Positions 19,409-28,255 of a stretch of DNA of 64,000 nucleotides are shown piece by piece. Source of the DNA: Algimonas porphyrae (lineage in GTDB: Bacteria > Pseudomonadota > Alphaproteobacteria > Caulobacterales > Maricaulaceae); NCBI RefSeq assembly GCF_041429795.1, contig NZ_CP163424.1, positions 1,738,001 to 1,802,000 of the forward strand, given 5' to 3'. The stretch's first letter is position 1. Every line of letters begins with the position of its first letter. The position numbers were made by a program, and so were the translations under genes. The notes under the pieces are model-generated. The model did not search any database. It saw only the letters and a list, made by a program, of their open reading frames with translations, and was not told the origin of the DNA.

Positions 19409-22400
19409 CTAGTTCGGAGCCGGGACCGTGCCCAGCACGTTGCCGTTGGCGTCGATCACACGGCCTTGCGCATCAACCCGTCCGATCACCGCGCCTGACA
19501 GATCCAGCACGGCCCCGTCGGAACGGATGGTGAAGGTCTGGCTGGACTGTGACGATGATGAGCCCGAAGTAATCGTCGTGGCTCCGGTCGTCGTGACGGT
19601 GGTCGAAGAACCGCTGGTAATCGCACCAGGCGTCGTGACTGTCGTCGTGCGGCGCGATCCAGGCTGAATACGCAGATTGCGGACGACGATCTGACCATTG
19701 GCATCGATCACATTCAGCGTTGCAGCGTCATAGCGACCGATAATGGCACCGTTCTGATCGATCACCACGCCGTCATCGCGCACCGTGTAGGAGCGGGTAA
19801 CGGTCGTCGTTTCCGTGACGACACCAGTCTGCAGACCCGTGGTCGTCGTCACCGAACCGCCTGTCGAGAAGCCCGATGTGCGCGTGGTCGTGGTTGAACC
19901 GCTGACCATGGAGCGCCAGTCGACGCCCAGAATGTCGACAGTCCGGAGTGTCAGACCGCCCGTCGAGAGGTTGCGGGATACCTGGAAGGCTTCCACAGCC
20001 GCGTAGGTTTCCTGAGACAGGCGACCATCGATCGCACCGCTGTAGAACCCAAGCTCCTGCAGGCGACGCTGGATCGCGGAAATCACGACCGTATTGGCAT
20101 TGGCCTCACAGAGGACCTGACGCCATTCGGAACGCTGAGCCGACGTCTGTGTGCGCTTCTCGACGGTCCCGTATTCGGCAGGGATTTCGATCACTTCCGT
20201 GCGGGCTGGTGTCACGACACGCTGGACTTGAACGGTATCATAGACTGCCGGAATGACCCGGCGCTCGACGCGTGCCGGTGCGTCGACGACCCGACGCGTG
20301 ACCGTGCGGGTCACAGCTGGGATCGCCCGCTCTTCCGTCCGAGCCGGCTGTGCGACAATGCGACGTTCGACCGTGCGGGTGACCGCGGGAATGACCCGTT
20401 CTTCAGTCCGTGCCGGTGTCACGATACGGCGGCGTGTTTCCTGGCGTGTCACTGCTGGGATGACGCGCTCTTCCGTCCGAGCCGGAGCCCGCATGACGCG
20501 ACGTTCGACCGTGCGGGTGACCGCCGGAATGGCGCGTTCGACGACAGATGCTGGTGTACGGACGACATTGCGTTCGACCTGGCGTGTCACTGCCGGGATC
20601 GTTCGCTCGACGGTCCGGGCCGGTTGCGCCACGACGCGGCGTGTTTCCTGACGGGTGACCGCCGGAATGACGCGTTCTTCGGTCCGGGCCGGCTGACGCA
20701 GAACCTGGCGTTCGATTGTACGCGTGACCGCTGGGATGGCGCGTTCCGTTACCGATGCCGGCGTGCGCAGGACGCGACGTTCGACCTGACGCGTAATCGC
20801 CGGGACGACCTGTTCGGTGACTGAAGCCGGCGTGCGGATGACACGACGTTCGACCTGGCGTGTGACCGCTGGAATGGCGCGTTCGACCGTGCGGGCCGGT
20901 GTACGAATGACACGGCGTGTGTCCTGACGGGTGACCGCCGGAATGACACGCTCTGTAACAGCCGCTGGTGTGCGGACGACACGGCGTTCCTCGACGCGAG
21001 TGACAGCCGGGATAGCCCGTTCCGTCACCGCAGCCGGGGTGCGCAGGACGCGGCGCGTGACCGCTTCGACGACAGCCGGGATTGTCCGTTCCGTCACTGA
21101 GGCCGGTGTACGGACGACACGACGTTCGATCTGACGTGTCACCGCCGGGATGGTGCGTTCGACAGTCCGGGCCGGAGCCGAGACGACACGGCGTGTTTCG
21201 ACGCGCGTCACGGCCGGGATGACCCGTTCCGTCACGGAAGCCGGCGTGCGGACGACGCGACGCTCGACCTGACGCGTGACCGCCGGGATAACCCGTTCGG
21301 TGACGGCAGCCGGGGTACGGACGACACGGCGCTCTTCGGTGCGTGTCACGGCGGGGATGACCCGTTCCGTCACAGCGGCTGGCGCTTCGACCACACGGCG
21401 TGTGATCTGACGCGTCACGGCTGGGATCGTACGTTCCGCAATGCCGGCTGGCGTGCGCAGGACCTGACGTGTTTCCTGACGCGTGACCGCGGGGATAACC
21501 CGTTCAGTGACAGACGCCGGCGTAACCAGGCAGTTACACTCGATGACCTTTGTGACGGCTGGGATGATCCGCTCGACAACACGCGCTGGCGTGACGACCT
21601 GACGGATCGTTTCCTGACGGGTGACCGCCGGGACAACGCGCTCGGTCACGCCCGCTGGGGTGCGGACAATACGGCGCGTCACTTCCTTCGTGACGGCTGG
21701 GATGACCCGCTCCGTCACAGCAGCAGGAGCGCGGACGACGCGGCGATCTTCGACCCGCGTCACGGCCGGGATGACCCGTTCCGTGACAGCGGCAGGCGTG
21801 CGGACGACACGGCGCTCGATTTCACGCGTAACCGCGGGGATTGCGCGTTCGACAACAGCTGCAGGGGTGACGAGCACGTCGCGAGTCTCCATGCGCGTGA
21901 CCGCCGGGATGACCCGTTCTGTCACCGCTGCCGGCGTTCTGACAATCTGGCGTTCGACCTGTTTGGTCACAGCCGGGATCGTACGTTCCACGACTTGAGC
22001 CGGGTTGCTGACGATGCGGCGTGTTTCAACGCGTGTGACCGCCGGGATGACCCGTTCGACTGTCGATGCAGGTGTGCGAACCACGCGGCGTGACAGTTCT
22101 TTCGTCACGGCAGGAACGACCCGTTCGACCGTCCGGGCCGGCGTTACGATGCGACGCAGCTGCTCTGTCCGCGTTACGGCAGGCACGGCCCGCTCAGTTA
22201 CGCTCGCTGGCGCCGAAACGACGCGGCGGGTGATCTGTTTGGTCACGGCTGGAATAGTGCGCTCGGTCACGCCGGCAGGGGCGCGCACGACACGGCGTTC
22301 CTCGACGCGTGTGACGGCGGGGATAACCCGTTCCGTGACAGCGGCTGGCGTGCGGACGATACGGCGTTCGACCTCACGGGTCACGGCTGGAACGATCCGC

Positions 22401-25400
22401 TCGGCGGTTGTGGCCGGTGCGGTCAGAACACGGCGCGTTTCCTGACGGGTGACGGCGGGGATCACGCGTTCCGTAATCGCGGCGGGTGTGCGGACCACGC
22501 GGCGTGTCAGCTCCTTGGTGACTGCCGGGATCGTGCGTTCGACGGTTGCTGCAGGCTGAGCGACGACACGGCGTTCTTCGACGCGCGTGACGGCAGGGAT
22601 GACCCGTTCCGTGACAGCGGCTGGTGTGCGGACGATACGGCGTTCGACCTGACGCGTAACGGCTGGGATGACCTGTTCGACCGTTGTTGCCGGACGATCC
22701 AGAACGCGACGCGTTTCGGTCCGAACAACCGCCGGGATAACCCGTTCGGTGACAGATGCCGGGGTGACCAGGCAGTTACATTCGACAACCTTGGTGATAG
22801 CCGGAACGACCCGCTCGACAACACGGGCAGGAGTCCGGACGACACGGCGCGTTTCATTGCGCGTGACAGCTGGGATGACCCGCTCGACGGCTTGAGCTGG
22901 TGTTTCGACAACACGGCGCGTGATTTGGCGCGTTACTGCTGGGATAACCTGTTCCGCAACCCGAGCCGGGGTCCGGACGACGCGACGCTCGCGCACTTCG
23001 GTGATGGCCGGAATGGCCCGCTCGACGACTTGGGCCGGCTGGGAAACAACGCGGCGTTCGATCTGGCGTGTCACAGCCGGGATCGTGGTTTCGACAGTCG
23101 CAGCCGGTCGAACCAGGCGACGACGTTCTTCAACGCGGGTCACAGCCGGAATGACACGTTCGACCGCCTGAGCTGGCGTCCGGACGACCCGACGGGTTTC
23201 ATTGCGGGTGACGGCTGGAATGGCGCGTTCTTCGACCCGGGCCGGCGCAGAGACGACGCGGCGGGTTTCGACACGTGTCACCGCTGGGATGGCGCGCTCA
23301 ACAACACCAGCTGGACGATCAACAACGCGGCGTGTGACTTCACGTGTCACAGCTGGAACCGTGCGTTCGACGACGCGGGCCGGATTGGTGATGCGGCGGC
23401 GTTCCTCGACGCGAGTCACAGCCGGAATGGCGCGCTCGACAGTCCGCGCTGGCGTATCGATAACACGGCGTGTCACCTGCTGCGTCACAGCCGGGATACG
23501 GCGTTCGACGACTTGCGCTGGCGAGCGCAGAACATTGCGTTCGACCTGACGCGTTACAGCCGGAATGCGGCGTTCGACGACATTGGCCTGATCGACCAGA
23601 CGCTGGGTCTGAACCGTACCGATCTGTTCGGTGAATTCACCTGTCGGTCCGTTGCGTACGACGCGGGCAGGGGTTCTGACGCGGCGCACTTCGATCGTCT
23701 CGTAGCGAGCCGGGATTGTGACTTCGCGGGTTGAAGACGGTGTCGCAACGACACGGCGCGTGACTTCACGCGTCACAGCCGGAATGGTCTGCTCCACCAC
23801 GCGGGCGGGCTCCGCCACAACCTGCTTGGTGATCGTCTTGTACTTTGCTGGAACCAGAACCAGACACAGGATCTCGCCTGTCTGAGTCACGATTGTCTGT
23901 GACAACTCGACGACCTGATCGGACACGCCGTTAAAGACGGTAAATTGTCCCACCGTGCTTGTATTGACGCGGCCTTGGCCACCCAGTTCAATGGCATTGA
24001 GCGCTTGGCTGCCGGGTTTCCATTCTTCACGAGCCGGTTCGATCAGAACGCGCTCGCTACGTGTTTCGTAACGGGCAGGGATGACTTCGATGTCCGTCCG
24101 CGCAGGGCTGACGATGATCGTTTCCGTCACGGTCCGGTACGTTGGCGGGACGACTTCGATCGCTGTCGAGGCTTCCTGAACCAGAATTTGCTCTGTCACA
24201 GTCTCGTACTCAGCCGGGATGACGCTGAGCGTTTCGGCGGCAGCGCGCTGGACGAATGTCTGCGTCTCAGCCGCAAATTCGGCAGCAACGGACACATATT
24301 CAACCGTTTCAGGCTGGACGATAACGGTTTCGACAACCGTTTCGAATTCAGCGGGCACGGTCACGAGTTCGACAGTTTCATCCTGAATGACAACGGTTTC
24401 AGTGACATCGCGGAAGGTCGCCGGCGTAACGACCAGTTCGCTCGAAGCTTCCTGGACGACCACTGTCTCCGCAAAGGTCTCGAACTCCGCAGCGACAGAG
24501 ACATACTCGACCGTCGCGGGTTGAACGATAACGGTTTCCGTCACCTCGCGGAAGGTCGCCGGTGTAGAGACGAGCTCTGTAGAGGCTTCGCGAACCACGA
24601 TGGTTTCGCTGACTTCCTCGAACTGCGCCGGGATAGAGATGAGTTCGGAAGAGGCTTCCTGAACGATGATCGTTTCCGTCACATCTTCGAAGACGGCGGG
24701 TGTCACGACGAGTTCGGTCGAAGCGGGCTGCACTACGACCGTTTCCTGGTAGGTCTCGAACTGAGCCGGAACTGCTTCATAAGCAACCGAGGCGGGCTGC
24801 ACGACGATCGTTTCCGCGACCGTCTCGAAGACAGGCGGGACGGTGACAAGCTCAGTTGTCGCAGGCTGAATGACGACAGTTTCGGCAACCGTCTCAAATT
24901 CGGCTGCGATGGTTGTTAGCTCTGTCGAGGCTTCCTGAACGACCACGGTCTCGGTGACGGTGCCGAATTCGGCGGGAACGGTGACAAGCTCTGTCGAGGC
25001 TTCCTGAACGACGACCTGATACTGCTCTTCTTCGAAGACGGCAGGGATGGTCTCGAATGTCACTGTCGAAGGCTGGACGACGACGGTCTCTGAAACCGTC
25101 TCAAATACGGCGGGTGTGACTACCAGTTCGGTCGAGGCTTCCTGAACGACGACCTGGAAGGTCTCGTCGCGGTAGGACGCCGGAACCGCTTCGTAAGCGA
25201 CCGTAGCCGGTTGAACGACAACGGTTTCCGTCACGGTTTCAAAGACAGGTGGCACAGTTACGAGTTCGGTCGAGGCTTCCTGAACAAGAACGGTTTCCTG
25301 AACCGTCTCGAAGACGGCAGGAGTCGTGACATATTCGATGCCAGCGGGCTGAACGATGACGGTTTCGGTGACCGTGTCGAACACAGCTGGGACGCTGATC

Positions 25401-28255
25401 AGCTCTGTCGATGCGCCCTGAACGACGACCTCGAAGGTTTCATCTTCATAGACAGCCGGTGTGGTGACAAATTCGACCGTTGCTGGCTGCACCAGGACAG
25501 TTTCCGTCACGGTTTCGAAGACAGGTGGCACGCTGACCAGCTCGGTCGAGGCTTCCTGAACGACGATCGTTTCCTGGACGGTTTCGAATTGAGCTGCCGT
25601 CGCGACATATTCAACCGTTGCGGGTTGCACGACGACGGTTTCCGTCACTTCCTGGAACTGCGCCGGAACACTGACCAGTTCGGTTGTTGCGGGCTGGATG
25701 ATGACGGTTTCCGCATAGTCCTCGAACTGTGCCGGAACGGAGTCGAACTCGACCGTGGCAGGCTTGACGATGACTGTCTCTGTGACGGTTTCGAAAACAG
25801 GTGGGACCGTGACCAGTTCGGTCGAGGCTTCCCGCACGACGATGGTTTCGGAAACGTCCTCAAATACAGCCGGAATTGTCTCATAGGCGACCGTTGCAGG
25901 CTGCACGACGATGGTTTCCGCAACGGTATCGAAGATGGCCGGTGTCGAGACGAGCTCGGATGAGGCCTCTTGTACAACGACCTGGTATTGCTCGGTTTCG
26001 AAGATGGCAGGGGTCGTGACGAACTCGACTGACGCAGGCTGCACGACGACAAGCTCGGAGACGGTTTCGAAGACGGGTGGAACGGTGACGAGCTCGGTTG
26101 AGGCTTCCTGGACGAGAACCGTTTCCTGAACGGTTTCGAACTGAGCCGGAACGGTTACATATTCGACCGTGGCGGGCTGGACGACGACCGTTTCCGTGAC
26201 GCTCTCAAATTGAGGGGCCGTGCTGACCAGTTCGGTCGAGGCTTCCTGTACGACGATTGTCTGGGTGATATCTTCGAAGACGGCGGGGACACCCGTATAC
26301 TCGACACCGGCAGGCTGAATGACGACCGTTTCTTCGAGTTTTTCGAAGACGGCAGGAACGACGACAAGCTCGGTCGAAGCTTCCTGGACGAGGACTTCAT
26401 AGGTTTCGGCCTCGTAGACAGGGGCCGTCGCGACATATTCGACCGTGGCGGGCTGGACGACGACGGTTTCAGTCACTTCGCGGAACTGGGCCGGCGTGCT
26501 GACCAGCTCGGTCGAGGCTTCCTGTACGACGATCGTTTCGCTGACTGTGTCGAAGACAGGGGCCGTCGTGACGAATTCGACGCCAGCGGGCTGTATGACA
26601 ACGGTTTCCTGTAGGGTTTCGAACACGGCCGGGACACTGACCAGCTCGGTCGAGGCTTCCTGTACAATGACCGTTTCGGCAACCTCTTCGAACTGCGCCG
26701 GGATCAGCTCATATTCGACGGTTGCGGGCTGCACGACGACGGTTTCGGCGACCGTTTCGAATACAGCCGGAACGCTGATCAATTCGGACGAGGCGGCCTG
26801 TGTGACGACATTATCCGTCACGGTCTCGAAGACCGCCGGCGTAACGACCAGTTCGCTGGACGCATCTTGCACCACGACTGTTTCCGTCACGGTTTCAAAG
26901 ACGGGCGGCGTGGACACCAGTTCGGTCGAAGCTTCCTGAATGACGACCGTTTCAGTTACATCTTCAAATTCAGCAGGGAAAACCTGAAACTCCACGGATG
27001 CCGGTTGAACGACAACTGTTTCTTGGACGGTTTCAAATGTGGCAGGAACGGAAACGAGCTGGGTCGTAGCGGGCTGCACAACCAGCGTTTCGTTGACCGT
27101 TTCGAAGACGGCGGGTGTCGTGACAAGTTCGCTTGCGGCCTGCTGAACGACGACCGTTTCGGATACGGTCTCGAATTGGGCCGGTATGGTGACCAGTTCG
27201 CTCGATGCTTCCTGAACGACGATGGTTTCGACCACATCTTCGAAAACGGGAGCGATAACTTCATAGGCAACGCTAGCAGGCTGAACGACAACCGTTTCGG
27301 CAACCGCTTCAAATGTAGCGGGCGTGCTGACCAGTTCGGTTGACGCATCCTGGACGACGATGGTTTCCTGCACCGTTTCGAATTGAGCTGGAATGCTGAC
27401 CAGTTCGGTCGATGCTTCCTGCACGACAATTGTGTCCGTGAAGTCTTCATAGGTTGCAGGGATCGCAACATATTCGATGCTTTCAGGGCGAACGACGATG
27501 GTTTCAGCCACTGTTTCATAGACAGGCGGAATTGTGACGAGCTGAGTCGCGGCTTCCTGCACGACAATGGTTTCCTGAACCGTCCGGAACGTCGGTGTCG
27601 CGGAGCCGATCGCGCCGCCATAGCTGTTCACCGCATTGGCGACGATGACCTGACCGGTCGAACCGGTAATATTGCCGCTCTGGTCGATCAGACCGAAAGG
27701 ACGCCCGTCAGCCGTAAATACGGCGTAGCCCGTATCGACGCTGTAACGTGTGCCATTGATGAGCAGGTTGGTGACGATGCCATTACGCACACCGATGAAG
27801 GTGACAGGGTCAACGGCACCGGCGAGGATGACATTGCCGTTGAGACCAACGAGATCGCCATTGACGTCGATGGATCCGACGCGCTGACCGCTGGGGTCGA
27901 TCAGGCTGCGGTCGGGTGCGACTGTGTAGGCGACACCGCTATAGATCAGTGTGATGCGACCGATACCGGGAACGAGCTGTGTGCCGGAGGGGGAGCCGAC
28001 AGGGACAATCTCGAAGCTTTCTTCCTGTATCAGGATGCGCTCCGTAACAGTTTCAAGCTGTGCCGGAATCTTGCGGATTTCGCGGCTCGCCTGACGTAAT
28101 TCGACCTGCTCGGTCGAAACCTCATACTGGGCGGGGACGATGACCCGGGCGAAACATTCGCCGGGAAGGGGATTACCAGGCGGCAGATCCTGCGCGATGG
28201 TGGGTGCGGCAAGTACAGCGGCGCTGGCTGCCATCAGCAAGGTTTTTTTCATCAT
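19409..28255 (-). CDS. Giant exported 23-residue-repeat protein with peptidoglycan-binding domain
   Basis: 2,948 residues. Residues 1-21 are a signal peptide (MMKKTLLMAASAAVLAAPTI). Two degenerate repeat units (about 37-88) and a DG/G-rich module (90-222) follow. Then come 52 consecutive 23-residue acidic units (223-1418), a 49-residue linker, and 53 Arg-rich units of the same register (1468-2713, one with a 27-residue insertion). Residues 2714-2780 resemble a PG_binding_1 domain (IQRRLQELGFYSGAIDGRLS). A Thr/Ser/Gly-rich tail (2781-2948) holds two more DG-x-D-x-G modules. Typical units are FETVTETVVVQPATVEYVTV-type and IPAVTRQVERRVVRTPAAVT-type. I recall a few copies of such VPAxYxTV...PA units before a peptidoglycan-binding domain in other envelope proteins, but not this number. 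Start codons at 28255 and 28252 are equivalent. A structural envelope role is inferred. Confidence 0.9.
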   Translation of the reverse strand: MMKKTLLMAASAAVLAAPTIAQDLPPGNPLPGECFARVIVPAQYEVSTEQVELRQASREIRKIPAQLETVTERILIQEESFEIVPVGSPSGTQLVPGIGRITLIYSGVAYTVAPDRSLIDPSGQRVGSIDVNGDLVGLNGNVILAGAVDPVTFIGVRNGIVTNLLINGTRYSVDTGYAVFTADGRPFGLIDQSGNITGSTGQVIVANAVNSYGGAIGSATPTFRTVQETIVVQEAATQLVTIPPVYETVAETIVVRPESIEYVAIPATYEDFTDTIVVQEASTELVSIPAQFETVQETIVVQDASTELVSTPATFEAVAETVVVQPASVAYEVIAPVFEDVVETIVVQEASSELVTIPAQFETVSETVVVQQAASELVTTPAVFETVNETLVVQPATTQLVSVPATFETVQETVVVQPASVEFQVFPAEFEDVTETVVIQEASTELVSTPPVFETVTETVVVQDASSELVVTPAVFETVTDNVVTQAASSELISVPAVFETVAETVVVQPATVEYELIPAQFEEVAETVIVQEASTELVSVPAVFETLQETVVIQPAGVEFVTTAPVFDTVSETIVVQEASTELVSTPAQFREVTETVVVQPATVEYVATAPVYEAETYEVLVQEASTELVVVPAVFEKLEETVVIQPAGVEYTGVPAVFEDITQTIVVQEASTELVSTAPQFESVTETVVVQPATVEYVTVPAQFETVQETVLVQEASTELVTVPPVFETVSELVVVQPASVEFVTTPAIFETEQYQVVVQEASSELVSTPAIFDTVAETIVVQPATVAYETIPAVFEDVSETIVVREASTELVTVPPVFETVTETVIVKPATVEFDSVPAQFEDYAETVIIQPATTELVSVPAQFQEVTETVVVQPATVEYVATAAQFETVQETIVVQEASTELVSVPPVFETVTETVLVQPATVEFVTTPAVYEDETFEVVVQGASTELISVPAVFDTVTETVIVQPAGIEYVTTPAVFETVQETVLVQEASTELVTVPPVFETVTETVVVQPATVAYEAVPASYRDETFQVVVQEASTELVVTPAVFETVSETVVVQPSTVTFETIPAVFEEEQYQVVVQEASTELVTVPAEFGTVTETVVVQEASTELTTIAAEFETVAETVVIQPATTELVTVPPVFETVAETIVVQPASVAYEAVPAQFETYQETVVVQPASTELVVTPAVFEDVTETIIVQEASSELISIPAQFEEVSETIVVREASTELVSTPATFREVTETVIVQPATVEYVSVAAEFETFAETVVVQEASSELVVTPATFRDVTETVVIQDETVELVTVPAEFETVVETVIVQPETVEYVSVAAEFAAETQTFVQRAAAETLSVIPAEYETVTEQILVQEASTAIEVVPPTYRTVTETIIVSPARTDIEVIPARYETRSERVLIEPAREEWKPGSQALNAIELGGQGRVNTSTVGQFTVFNGVSDQVVELSQTIVTQTGEILCLVLVPAKYKTITKQVVAEPARVVEQTIPAVTREVTRRVVATPSSTREVTIPARYETIEVRRVRTPARVVRNGPTGEFTEQIGTVQTQRLVDQANVVERRIPAVTRQVERNVLRSPAQVVERRIPAVTQQVTRRVIDTPARTVERAIPAVTRVEERRRITNPARVVERTVPAVTREVTRRVVDRPAGVVERAIPAVTRVETRRVVSAPARVEERAIPAVTRNETRRVVRTPAQAVERVIPAVTRVEERRRLVRPAATVETTIPAVTRQIERRVVSQPAQVVERAIPAITEVRERRVVRTPARVAEQVIPAVTRQITRRVVETPAQAVERVIPAVTRNETRRVVRTPARVVERVVPAITKVVECNCLVTPASVTERVIPAVVRTETRRVLDRPATTVEQVIPAVTRQVERRIVRTPAAVTERVIPAVTRVEERRVVAQPAATVERTIPAVTKELTRRVVRTPAAITERVIPAVTRQETRRVLTAPATTAERIVPAVTREVERRIVRTPAAVTERVIPAVTRVEERRVVRAPAGVTERTIPAVTKQITRRVVSAPASVTERAVPAVTRTEQLRRIVTPARTVERVVPAVTKELSRRVVRTPASTVERVIPAVTRVETRRIVSNPAQVVERTIPAVTKQVERQIVRTPAAVTERVIPAVTRMETRDVLVTPAAVVERAIPAVTREIERRVVRTPAAVTERVIPAVTRVEDRRVVRAPAAVTERVIPAVTKEVTRRIVRTPAGVTERVVPAVTRQETIRQVVTPARVVERIIPAVTKVIECNCLVTPASVTERVIPAVTRQETRQVLRTPAGIAERTIPAVTRQITRRVVEAPAAVTERVIPAVTRTEERRVVRTPAAVTERVIPAVTRQVERRVVRTPASVTERVIPAVTRVETRRVVSAPARTVERTIPAVTRQIERRVVRTPASVTERTIPAVVEAVTRRVLRTPAAVTERAIPAVTRVEERRVVRTPAAVTERVIPAVTRQDTRRVIRTPARTVERAIPAVTRQVERRVIRTPASVTEQVVPAITRQVERRVLRTPASVTERAIPAVTRTIERQVLRQPARTEERVIPAVTRQETRRVVAQPARTVERTIPAVTRQVERNVVRTPASVVERAIPAVTRTVERRVMRAPARTEERVIPAVTRQETRRRIVTPARTEERVIPAVTRTVERRIVAQPARTEERAIPAVTRTVTRRVVDAPARVERRVIPAVYDTVQVQRVVTPARTEVIEIPAEYGTVEKRTQTSAQRSEWRQVLCEANANTVVISAIQRRLQELGFYSGAIDGRLSQETYAAVEAFQVSRNLSTGGLTLRTVDILGVDWRSMVSGSTTTTRTSGFSTGGSVTTTTGLQTGVVTETTTVTRSYTVRDDGVVIDQNGAIIGRYDAATLNVIDANGQIVVRNLRIQPGSRRTTTVTTPGAITSGSSTTVTTTGATTITSGSSSSQSSQTFTIRSDGAVLDLSGAVIGRVDAQGRVIDANGNVLGTVPAPN
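20117..23854 (-). repeat. Basic repeat block: 53 units of 69 bp (23 residues), Arg-rich
   Basis: Counted unit by unit from residue 1468 to 2713. All units are 23 residues except the third, which is 50 because of an insertion (NGPTGEFTEQIGTVQTQRLV region). The consensus is I-P-A-V-T-R-x-x-x-R-R-V-V-x-x-P-A-x-x-x-E-R-x. Units carry about five or six Arg against two Glu. Units starting at residues 1817 and 2231 differ from all others in holding Glu-Cys-Asn-Cys. DNA copies are diverged at synonymous positions, but some stretches remain nearly identical (22321-22390 against 22597-22666, four units apart). Confidence 0.93.
24002..27589 (-). repeat. Acidic repeat block: 52 units of 69 bp (23 residues), Glu/Thr/Val-rich
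   Basis: Counted unit by unit from residue 223 to 1418 with no length change at all; both ends were checked against the DNA. The consensus is F-E-T-V-x-E-T-V-V-V-Q-[EP]-A-[ST]-[TV]-E-[LY]-V-[ST]-x-P-A-x, with about four Glu and almost no Lys or Arg per unit. Two flavours alternate for much of the block, QEASTELVS and QPATVEYVT, giving a 46-residue (138-bp) higher period. Confidence 0.93.

Follow-up and report, generated by a model that had tools for sequence, protein, structure and literature searches.

The window analysed here is a 64,000-nucleotide stretch of the genome of Algimonas porphyrae LMG 26424, a marine strain of the Robiginitomaculaceae, prosthecate Caulobacterales, whose genome is available as a closed long-read assembly of 3,169,281 bp (PMC11556061). 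The assembly containing the window likewise holds 3,169,281 bases in one contig. At the coordinates given in the initial annotation, but on the minus strand (28255..19409), the window carries an open reading frame of 2,948 residues with an ATG start, encoding a giant protein built of 23-residue repeats. Since the assembly was built from long reads, its count of repeats can be expected to hold. The repeats are not a product of chance, and they are unlikely to stem from faulty assembly.

Anatomy of the giant protein

The chain begins with a signal-peptide-like start, a hydrophobic segment ending in ..PTIAQ and judged by eye to be a putative signal peptide. It is followed by Cys34 with two repeat units, a 133-residue insert, 52 acidic units and Trp1412. 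Beyond the tip linker, the order continues with Cys1464, 54 basic units with a four-residue insert, Trp2711, Cys2716, the PG_binding_1 domain and a Thr/Ser-rich tail (Table 1). The 52 contiguous acidic units described initially stand, with their limits moved from residues 223-1418 to 220-1415, and two more units (residues 41-86) precede the insert, which brings arm 1 to 54. The 53 basic units counted at residues 1468-2713 have to be replaced: arm 2, from C1464 to W2711, consists of 54 units and a 4-residue insert.

Table 1. Features of the giant protein in window coordinates
Feature	Residues	Position	Strand	Remarks
Putative signal peptide	1-21	28193..28255	(-)	Probable type I cleavage, judged by eye
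Arm 1, acidic	Cys34-Trp1412	24020..28156	(-)	54 units of 23 residues plus insert 1
Insert 1	87-219	27599..27997	(-)	133 aa, between arm 1 units 2 and 3
Contiguous acidic units of arm 1	220-1415	24011..27598	(-)	52 units
Tip linker	W1412 to C1464	23867..24019	(-)	KPGSQALN..GQFTVFNGVS..TGEIL
Arm 2, basic	Cys1464-Trp2711	20123..23866	(-)	54 units plus 4-residue insert
Insert 2	1538-1541	23633..23644	(-)	Between arm 2 units 3 and 4
Third conserved cysteine	Cys2716	20108..20110	(-)	Adjoins Cys34 in the deduced register
PG_binding_1 domain	2726-2776	19928..20080	(-)	Pfam PF01471, E 5.4e-9
Thr/Ser-rich tail with D-G..IG repeats		19409..19927	(-)	Bflower_2 and DUF3659 matches weak, below cut-off

The acidic and basic units share one register, [VI]-PA, twelve residues, [PE]-A and seven residues, in which positions are numbered from 0 at the Pro. 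Because of this shared register the two kinds of unit are taken as one repeat, in agreement with the earlier proposal of a single family with opposite charges. The mean net charge per unit is -3.4 in the acidic array, from which Lys and Arg are almost absent, and +2.3 in the basic one. No Pfam or NCBIfam model matching the repeat was found in a search of the giant protein. The only arm match at E <= 1, DASH_Ask1 (24.1 bits, best stretch 1859-1891), contains no single stretch that passes alone and was taken as compositional. The C-terminal domain that had been described as PG_binding_1-like is recognised by Pfam with 36.5 bits against a curated cut-off of 23, and the match appears also in the scan of the whole genome of the strain.

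The two inserts and the linker vary in size among the 26 complete giants described below. Insert 1, which is predicted to lie near the base of the paired structure, has 0 or 3 aa in five of them, and its D-G..IG..D motifs resemble, by eye, the C-terminal tail of the protein. Insert 2 has 33-61 aa in 22 of the 26, and the distance from Trp to Cys across the tip linker is 51-59 residues in all.

AlphaFold2 predicted, for a short homologue, 12- and 7-residue strands with Pro-Ala between them (pLDDT 69, pTM 0.45) and, for the tip of the giant, nearly the same strands (pLDDT 65, pTM 0.22). Nearly all unit segments were predicted as strands with modest confidence, so that the two strands per unit suggested initially are found again at low confidence. 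A comparison of the arms with the PDB by Foldseek and VIA returned no good match, the weak ones being mostly long hairpin stems and phage or virus proteins; such a lack of a match does not establish a new fold. In a profile search of the PDB by sequence, 14 of 15 rows matched the PG domain, and the remaining one was a weak match (E 0.44) in the region of the arms.

Relatives, arm lengths and the unit map

A search of 40 related genomes gave matches in 28, and 112 of 150 genomes of the order match a short homologue, where weak matches may represent the PG domain alone. Reading frames of more than 2,600 residues occur in at least nine genomes among the matches listed, all in the family of the window. 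A scan of named genomes confirmed 97 relatives, of which the best 80 were analysed. Among these best 80 of 97, giants, whole or partial, belong to Algimonas, Litorimonas, Hellea, Robiginitomaculum and relatives, with some under other labels in metagenome bins. The short forms in the same set come from Hyphomonas, Henriciella, Hirschia, Ponticaulis, Aquisalinus, Parvularculaceae, some Gammaproteobacteria and a few other labels. The initial annotation had treated a lack of relatives with both blocks as evidence against its reading; 25 other giants carry both blocks complete. In 14 giants, three Cys and two Trp mark the ends of the arms, with a Cys at the start and a Trp at the end of each arm and the third Cys past arm 2. 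The neighbourhood was compared in 23 giant loci, two of which (L089 and L106) are from one genome and several of which lie on stretches too short for all neighbours. An acetyltransferase gene was found in 22, an Obg GTPase in 21 and an M16 peptidase in 17, from which we infer one inherited locus. In the draft genome of Algimonas arctica, the giant gene (L047 / L100) is broken into two open frames.

Uncharacterised short two-arm proteins occur in Caulobacterales and in some other bacteria; they are about 320-530 aa long and built of the same 23-residue unit. Like the giant, they have three Cys and two Trp at the arm ends, arm lengths of 23n+3 and 23n+1 residues and the same antiparallel register. 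The PG_binding_1 domain is present in 25 of 25 members scanned, all of them obtained with a search query that itself selected for this domain; Pfam models gave no match in the arms of these members at E 0.01, except for one DUF3760 match in one of them. The differences are the number of units per arm, 3-5 (7 in one case, by eye) against 46-54, and a net arm charge that is often weak. Some of the short proteins look, by eye, like lipoproteins. The window's own genome encodes a short paralogue (L048, G000:C1:504021-504878) with 4/4 units, without the acid-then-base order of charge and with no match to PG_binding_1. Many of the short homologues pooled for the covariation analysis have arms of weak or like net charge, and opposite charge does not define the pairing family.

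The lengths of the arms were measured from Cys to Trp with both inserts removed, in 26 distinct giants with both arms complete, the window included; genes that were split, cut by contig ends or interrupted by unread bases were omitted. Arm 1 has exactly 23n+3 and arm 2 exactly 23n+1 residues, and in the window giant n is exactly 54 for both. The two values of n are equal in 23 of the 26 giants (18 at 54/54 and five at 46/46). The three unequal cases, 54/50, 52/48 and 42/41, are all metagenome genes, and misassembly of repeats is a possible source. Among the short homologues, 45 of 47 loci were covered: 38 parse fully, every one with equal arms, and seven incompletely. The fully parsed forms comprise 27 at 4/4, one at 3/3, one at 5/5 (Ponticaulis, L174) and nine with four arms of 3. 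In these nine (L132, L136, L142, L143, L149, L150, L152, L172 and L173), two arms of 23n+3 are followed by two of 23n+1, an arrangement which suggests two paired ribbons. One of the incompletely parsed short forms, from Candidatus Parabeggiatoa (L151), has 7/7 units by eye, and in each of its arms the first unit is longer by one residue.

The 46- and 54-unit classes differ by eight units in both arms. An attempt to locate the eight units missing from the 46-unit arms, as a test of the register, gave an ambiguous result because the central units are too alike. A tree of 25 giants, made to see whether the 46/46 class arose once, has an unresolved backbone; the claim made here is therefore one of at least one coordinated change of arm length.

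Units of arm 1 with an aromatic residue at position 19 follow a map, which in 14 of 19 arms of 54 units reads 4, 7, 11, 15, 17 ... 39 (odd numbers), 43, 47, 50 and 54 and in the remaining ones is off by one or two places. In the five 46-unit arms of unbroken genes it reads 4, 7, 11, 15 ... 31, 35, 39, 42 and 46. Marked units of arm 2, with Glu or Asp at position 6, have largely the same numbers, less so in L103, L109, L113 and L114, and such matching of the maps across the arms is attributed to pairing. In arms of 54, 52, 46 and 42 units the arm 1 map shows mirror symmetry around the midpoint, and the maps of the shorter arms differ solely in the central stretch of period two. By hand arithmetic, 252 out of 278,460 arrangements of the same spacings are mirror-symmetric. 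Mirror symmetry within each arm is not required by pairing of the arms.

Between the window giant and four relatives the arms are 60-70% identical, with dS of about 1.2 or more (one comparison saturated) and dN of 0.24-0.39, which places the arms under purifying selection. The nearest relative among those compared (L099) has arms 68-70% identical to those of the window, with dS 1.2 and dN 0.24-0.27. Adjacent units inside the giant have a mean DNA identity of only 55-59%. The array looks old, with equal length kept while the sequence diverged. Inside each arm, units separated by an even number of positions change jointly within a lineage, with peaks at 46, 92, 138, 184 and 276 residues, and the correlation at multiples of 46 persists to 414 residues. 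This joint change of units of the same type is read here as exchange between units, which makes the constancy of the unit number more striking.

Such data also bear on the view that each arm is an independent beta-solenoid or tandem beta-domain rod, the two standing in series and owing their equal length to historical inertia. It would account for a unit number conserved across near-saturated synonymous divergence, and stacking could in principle cause the joint change at even spacings of 46-276 residues. A signal out to 414 residues, however, is better explained by concerted evolution than by contact, the 46 and 54 classes differ by eight in both arms, and short forms at 5/5 and 3/3 exist. 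Together with the unit-specific antiparallel covariation between the arms described below, this leaves independent rods barely credible.

Covariation between the arms and the pairing register

Mutual information between arm 1 and arm 2 was calculated for 59 non-redundant 4/4 homologues out of 61 (Neff 40). The top of 232 registers (116 antiparallel and 116 parallel) is the antiparallel one with i+j=97, at z 8.5. The neighbouring registers 96 and 95 reach 4.4 and 4.0, the best unrelated antiparallel register 3.3 and the best parallel one 2.8. When arm 2 was shuffled among the sequences, the maximum z over all registers in 100 permutations was 3.69. The register signal, here and in the giants, is a sum over the arms in few sequences (Neff 40; 17 giants), and most strong single pairs lie off the register: 42 of the 60 strongest are cross-arm, with 12 of these at most 2 residues from the register, against an expectation of 5%, and 30 farther off.

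The giants were analysed separately, with 17 of the 18 members of the 54/54 class, correction for relatedness and 601 antiparallel and 601 parallel registers. With a grouped alphabet, the peak of z 8.5 falls where the short forms lead one to expect it (i+j=23N+5), and the register at +1 gives 7.4; with the 20-letter alphabet the peak is at +1 (z 7.5) and offset 0 gives 5.9. The best unrelated registers have z 4.5, antiparallel and parallel alike. Weaker sums occur at -183 (4.5), +277 (4.3), +185 (3.8) and, in parallel, at +54 (4.5); the secondary signals near +-8 and +12 units (z 3.8-4.5) are interpreted as concerted evolution within the arms. By thirds of arm 1, z is 6.2 at 0, then 6.9 at +1 with 3.9 at 0, then 4.4 at 0. 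A subset of 14 species gives z 8.8, and omission of the end units leaves 7.8 at +1 and 7.5 at 0. For registers shifted by one or two units, z stays under 1 at offset 0 and does not exceed 2.0 at +1. Shifts by whole units lose the signal, and therefore each unit tracks its own partner.

A register of constant i+j thus runs along both arms with z 8.5 in each of two data sets, 59 short forms and 17 giants. The initial annotation had supposed that the halves could zip together within a molecule or between neighbours; zipping is supported and takes a more exact form, antiparallel, in which unit k of arm 1 meets unit 55-k of the equally long arm 2. Antiparallel pairing of the arms is well supported. 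Parallel pairing is rejected on the residue covariation (best z 2.8 in the short forms and 4.5 in the giants). Unit types correlate at 0.94 in the parallel as in the mirrored register and, because the unit map is nearly mirror-symmetric, this correlation decides no direction.

The chemistry of the facing residues agrees with the register. Charge at the covariation register is the most attractive of 93 (mean centred product -0.055, the next -0.044). Glu4 of arm 1 mostly stands opposite Lys or Arg12, Glu8 opposite Arg8, and Leu or Tyr19 opposite Arg20. At the Pro-Ala pairs alanine lies opposite alanine (A1-A15 and A15-A1), which brings the kinks of the two arms to the same places. For roughly its first 17 residues, a unit k of arm 1 is opposite unit 55-k of arm 2; its remaining residues are opposite unit 54-k. 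At the base Cys34 adjoins Cys2716, with the PG domain next, and Trp1412 and Cys1464 bracket the tip. Equal arms, antiparallel register, complementary charge and coincident kinks come directly from computation; supercoiling, location and function of the ribbon are inferred.

Short acid/base hairpins made of the giant's repeat also occur inside other proteins of relatives. An example is a SIMPL domain protein (L185), in which an acid strand leads through an NGRA turn into a base strand. The opposite order, base strand, four-residue turn (ADGT, PDGT or DDGS) and acid strand, is found in three von Willebrand A proteins by Pfam (L179, L180 and L181), and a fourth protein, ended by the contig (L184), resembles them with no Pfam match. 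In these five fragments the predicted facing pair encloses four or five residues, and because the turns vary, the hairpins fix the register only to about two residues. L179 and L180 also contain a circular permutation of the tip, in which the linker and units 1-2 of arm 2 are followed by a short turn, units 53-54 of arm 1 and EEWKPxSQALN; the permuted order is visible as well in the matches on G002 contig 36 and G016 contig 138. The end of arm 1 and the start of arm 2 seem to be one folding unit, as pairing in a hairpin demands.

Covariation alone fits pairing within one molecule and between two alike. The arms could pair antiparallel between two molecules, by domain swap or as a head-to-tail chain, and form a charge-zipped cable, which would explain the covariation and the arm equality equally well; a mirror-symmetric unit map would be expected if ribbons or molecules also associate antiparallel. 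Against such a cable, the distance from Trp to Cys is only 19-30 residues in some short homologues, the embedded hairpins, in the same register, have turns of 4-5 residues between acid and base strands, and the tip has been permuted with a short turn. These features make it plausible that pairing in cis can occur and that relatives employ it. They favour pairing within the molecule, which is likely, and the cable is judged quite improbable.

A probable single hairpin and its possible role

Very probably, the giant is an exported protein in the form of one hairpin, an antiparallel kinked beta ribbon on a putatively peptidoglycan-bound base, which would have evolved by parallel lengthening of its arms. 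After export, the chain would fold back on itself once: the acidic arm of 54 units would leave the base and turn at the conserved tip linker, and the basic arm of 54 units would return antiparallel, each unit k against unit 55-k. Together the arms would make up a single continuous antiparallel ribbon of two beta strands, exceptionally long at about 1,245 residues per arm and presumably joined by beta hydrogen bonding. The Pro-Ala pairs would kink it into alternating straight pieces of 12 and 7 residues, and cross-strand Glu-Arg/Lys pairs would help to hold it. At the base, Cys34 would meet Cys2716, possibly in a disulfide, and the PG_binding_1 domain that follows would fix the base to peptidoglycan. 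The origin may lie in a short two-arm envelope protein whose arms were both lengthened in parallel.

The ribbon might also be wound into a closed rectangular solenoid with two units (12+7+12+7) per turn. With standard strand geometry, simple arithmetic gives about 0.4 micrometre for the extended ribbon and about 26 nm for the wound rod. Winding is suggested by the period-two alternation of unit types in the central part of both arms and by the even lengths of the giant arms (54, 52, 50, 48, 46 and 42), but for one of 41. This arm of 41 units and the short forms with 3 and 5 units speak against it, as do AlphaFold2 models without a recognisable solenoid match. In the giants, moreover, a second covariation stripe one turn away was not found (z 0.2-0.9 at exactly +-46 residues with both alphabets, and 2.0 at most one residue beyond), and winding is considered unlikely. 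The same result leaves the stabilisation of an exposed two-stranded ribbon unsupported by covariation.

As for the place of the single hairpin in the cell, the C-terminal PG_binding_1 domain is the one feature that points to peptidoglycan, and whether the giant is a peptidoglycan-held structural element of the envelope, taken as a step by itself, is an even call. It may act as a structural spacer or scaffold in the envelope of stalked bacteria; a role in stalk or envelope architecture is a fair guess, made because all the giants found belong to one family, which is described as prosthecate. A more far-reaching and tentative proposal is that the ribbon is a length-matched zipper of up to about 0.4 micrometre (1,245 x ~3.3 A), its charge-opposite arms being kept equal to the unit by selection, that the mirror-symmetric map would allow ribbons to pack antiparallel into a regular peptidoglycan-fixed skeleton, and that the number of units acts as a ruler.

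Several known systems offer a comparison. The stems of pore-forming toxins and phage tail proteins have strands far shorter than those of the giant, lack a charge-segregated repeat and join barrels with neighbouring subunits; for the hairpin stems of aerolysin, lysenin, the anthrax protective antigen pore and the phi29 knob no homology to the giant is claimed. In giant tandem-repeat adhesins and beta-solenoid proteins, each repeat folds alone or stacks on its neighbour. The giant resembles them in being very large, repetitive and, as predicted, beta-rich and exported, and differs in that the apparent partner of a unit can lie as far as about 2,600 residues from it. As a principle the beta hairpin is old; what is considered new is its scale, together with the matching of the arrays and the division of charge. 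They are rated so because no family model, solved structure or open-access paper was found that describes mirror-paired, length-matched arrays; among the open-access PMC papers retrieved, judged by title and opening of the abstract, none concerned the giant protein or its repeat.

If the single hairpin is right, a repeat can pair with a partner up to thousands of residues off while the arrays stay equal, at 46/46 and at 54/54. It would then have to be asked how such a chain is exported and folded without mis-registering, how two arrays change their length jointly, and whether the unit number sets a physical length in the envelope. The repeat would also be a modular, charge-addressed beta zipper with natural truncations, the short acid/base hairpins grafted into other proteins.

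Two minor features concern arm 2. In the window giant it contains two CNC cysteine pairs (residues 1826, 1828, 2240 and 2242), 18 units apart; among 14 giants, an extra cysteine inside arm 2 is otherwise found only in L037, as a single one. An acidic stretch, e.g., DANRDGRDDRDG, absent from the window, L037 and L038, is present in the arm 2 insert after unit 3, near the tip, in 11 of the 14 (L039-L046 and L087-L089), and its motif resembles that of a calcium-binding loop.
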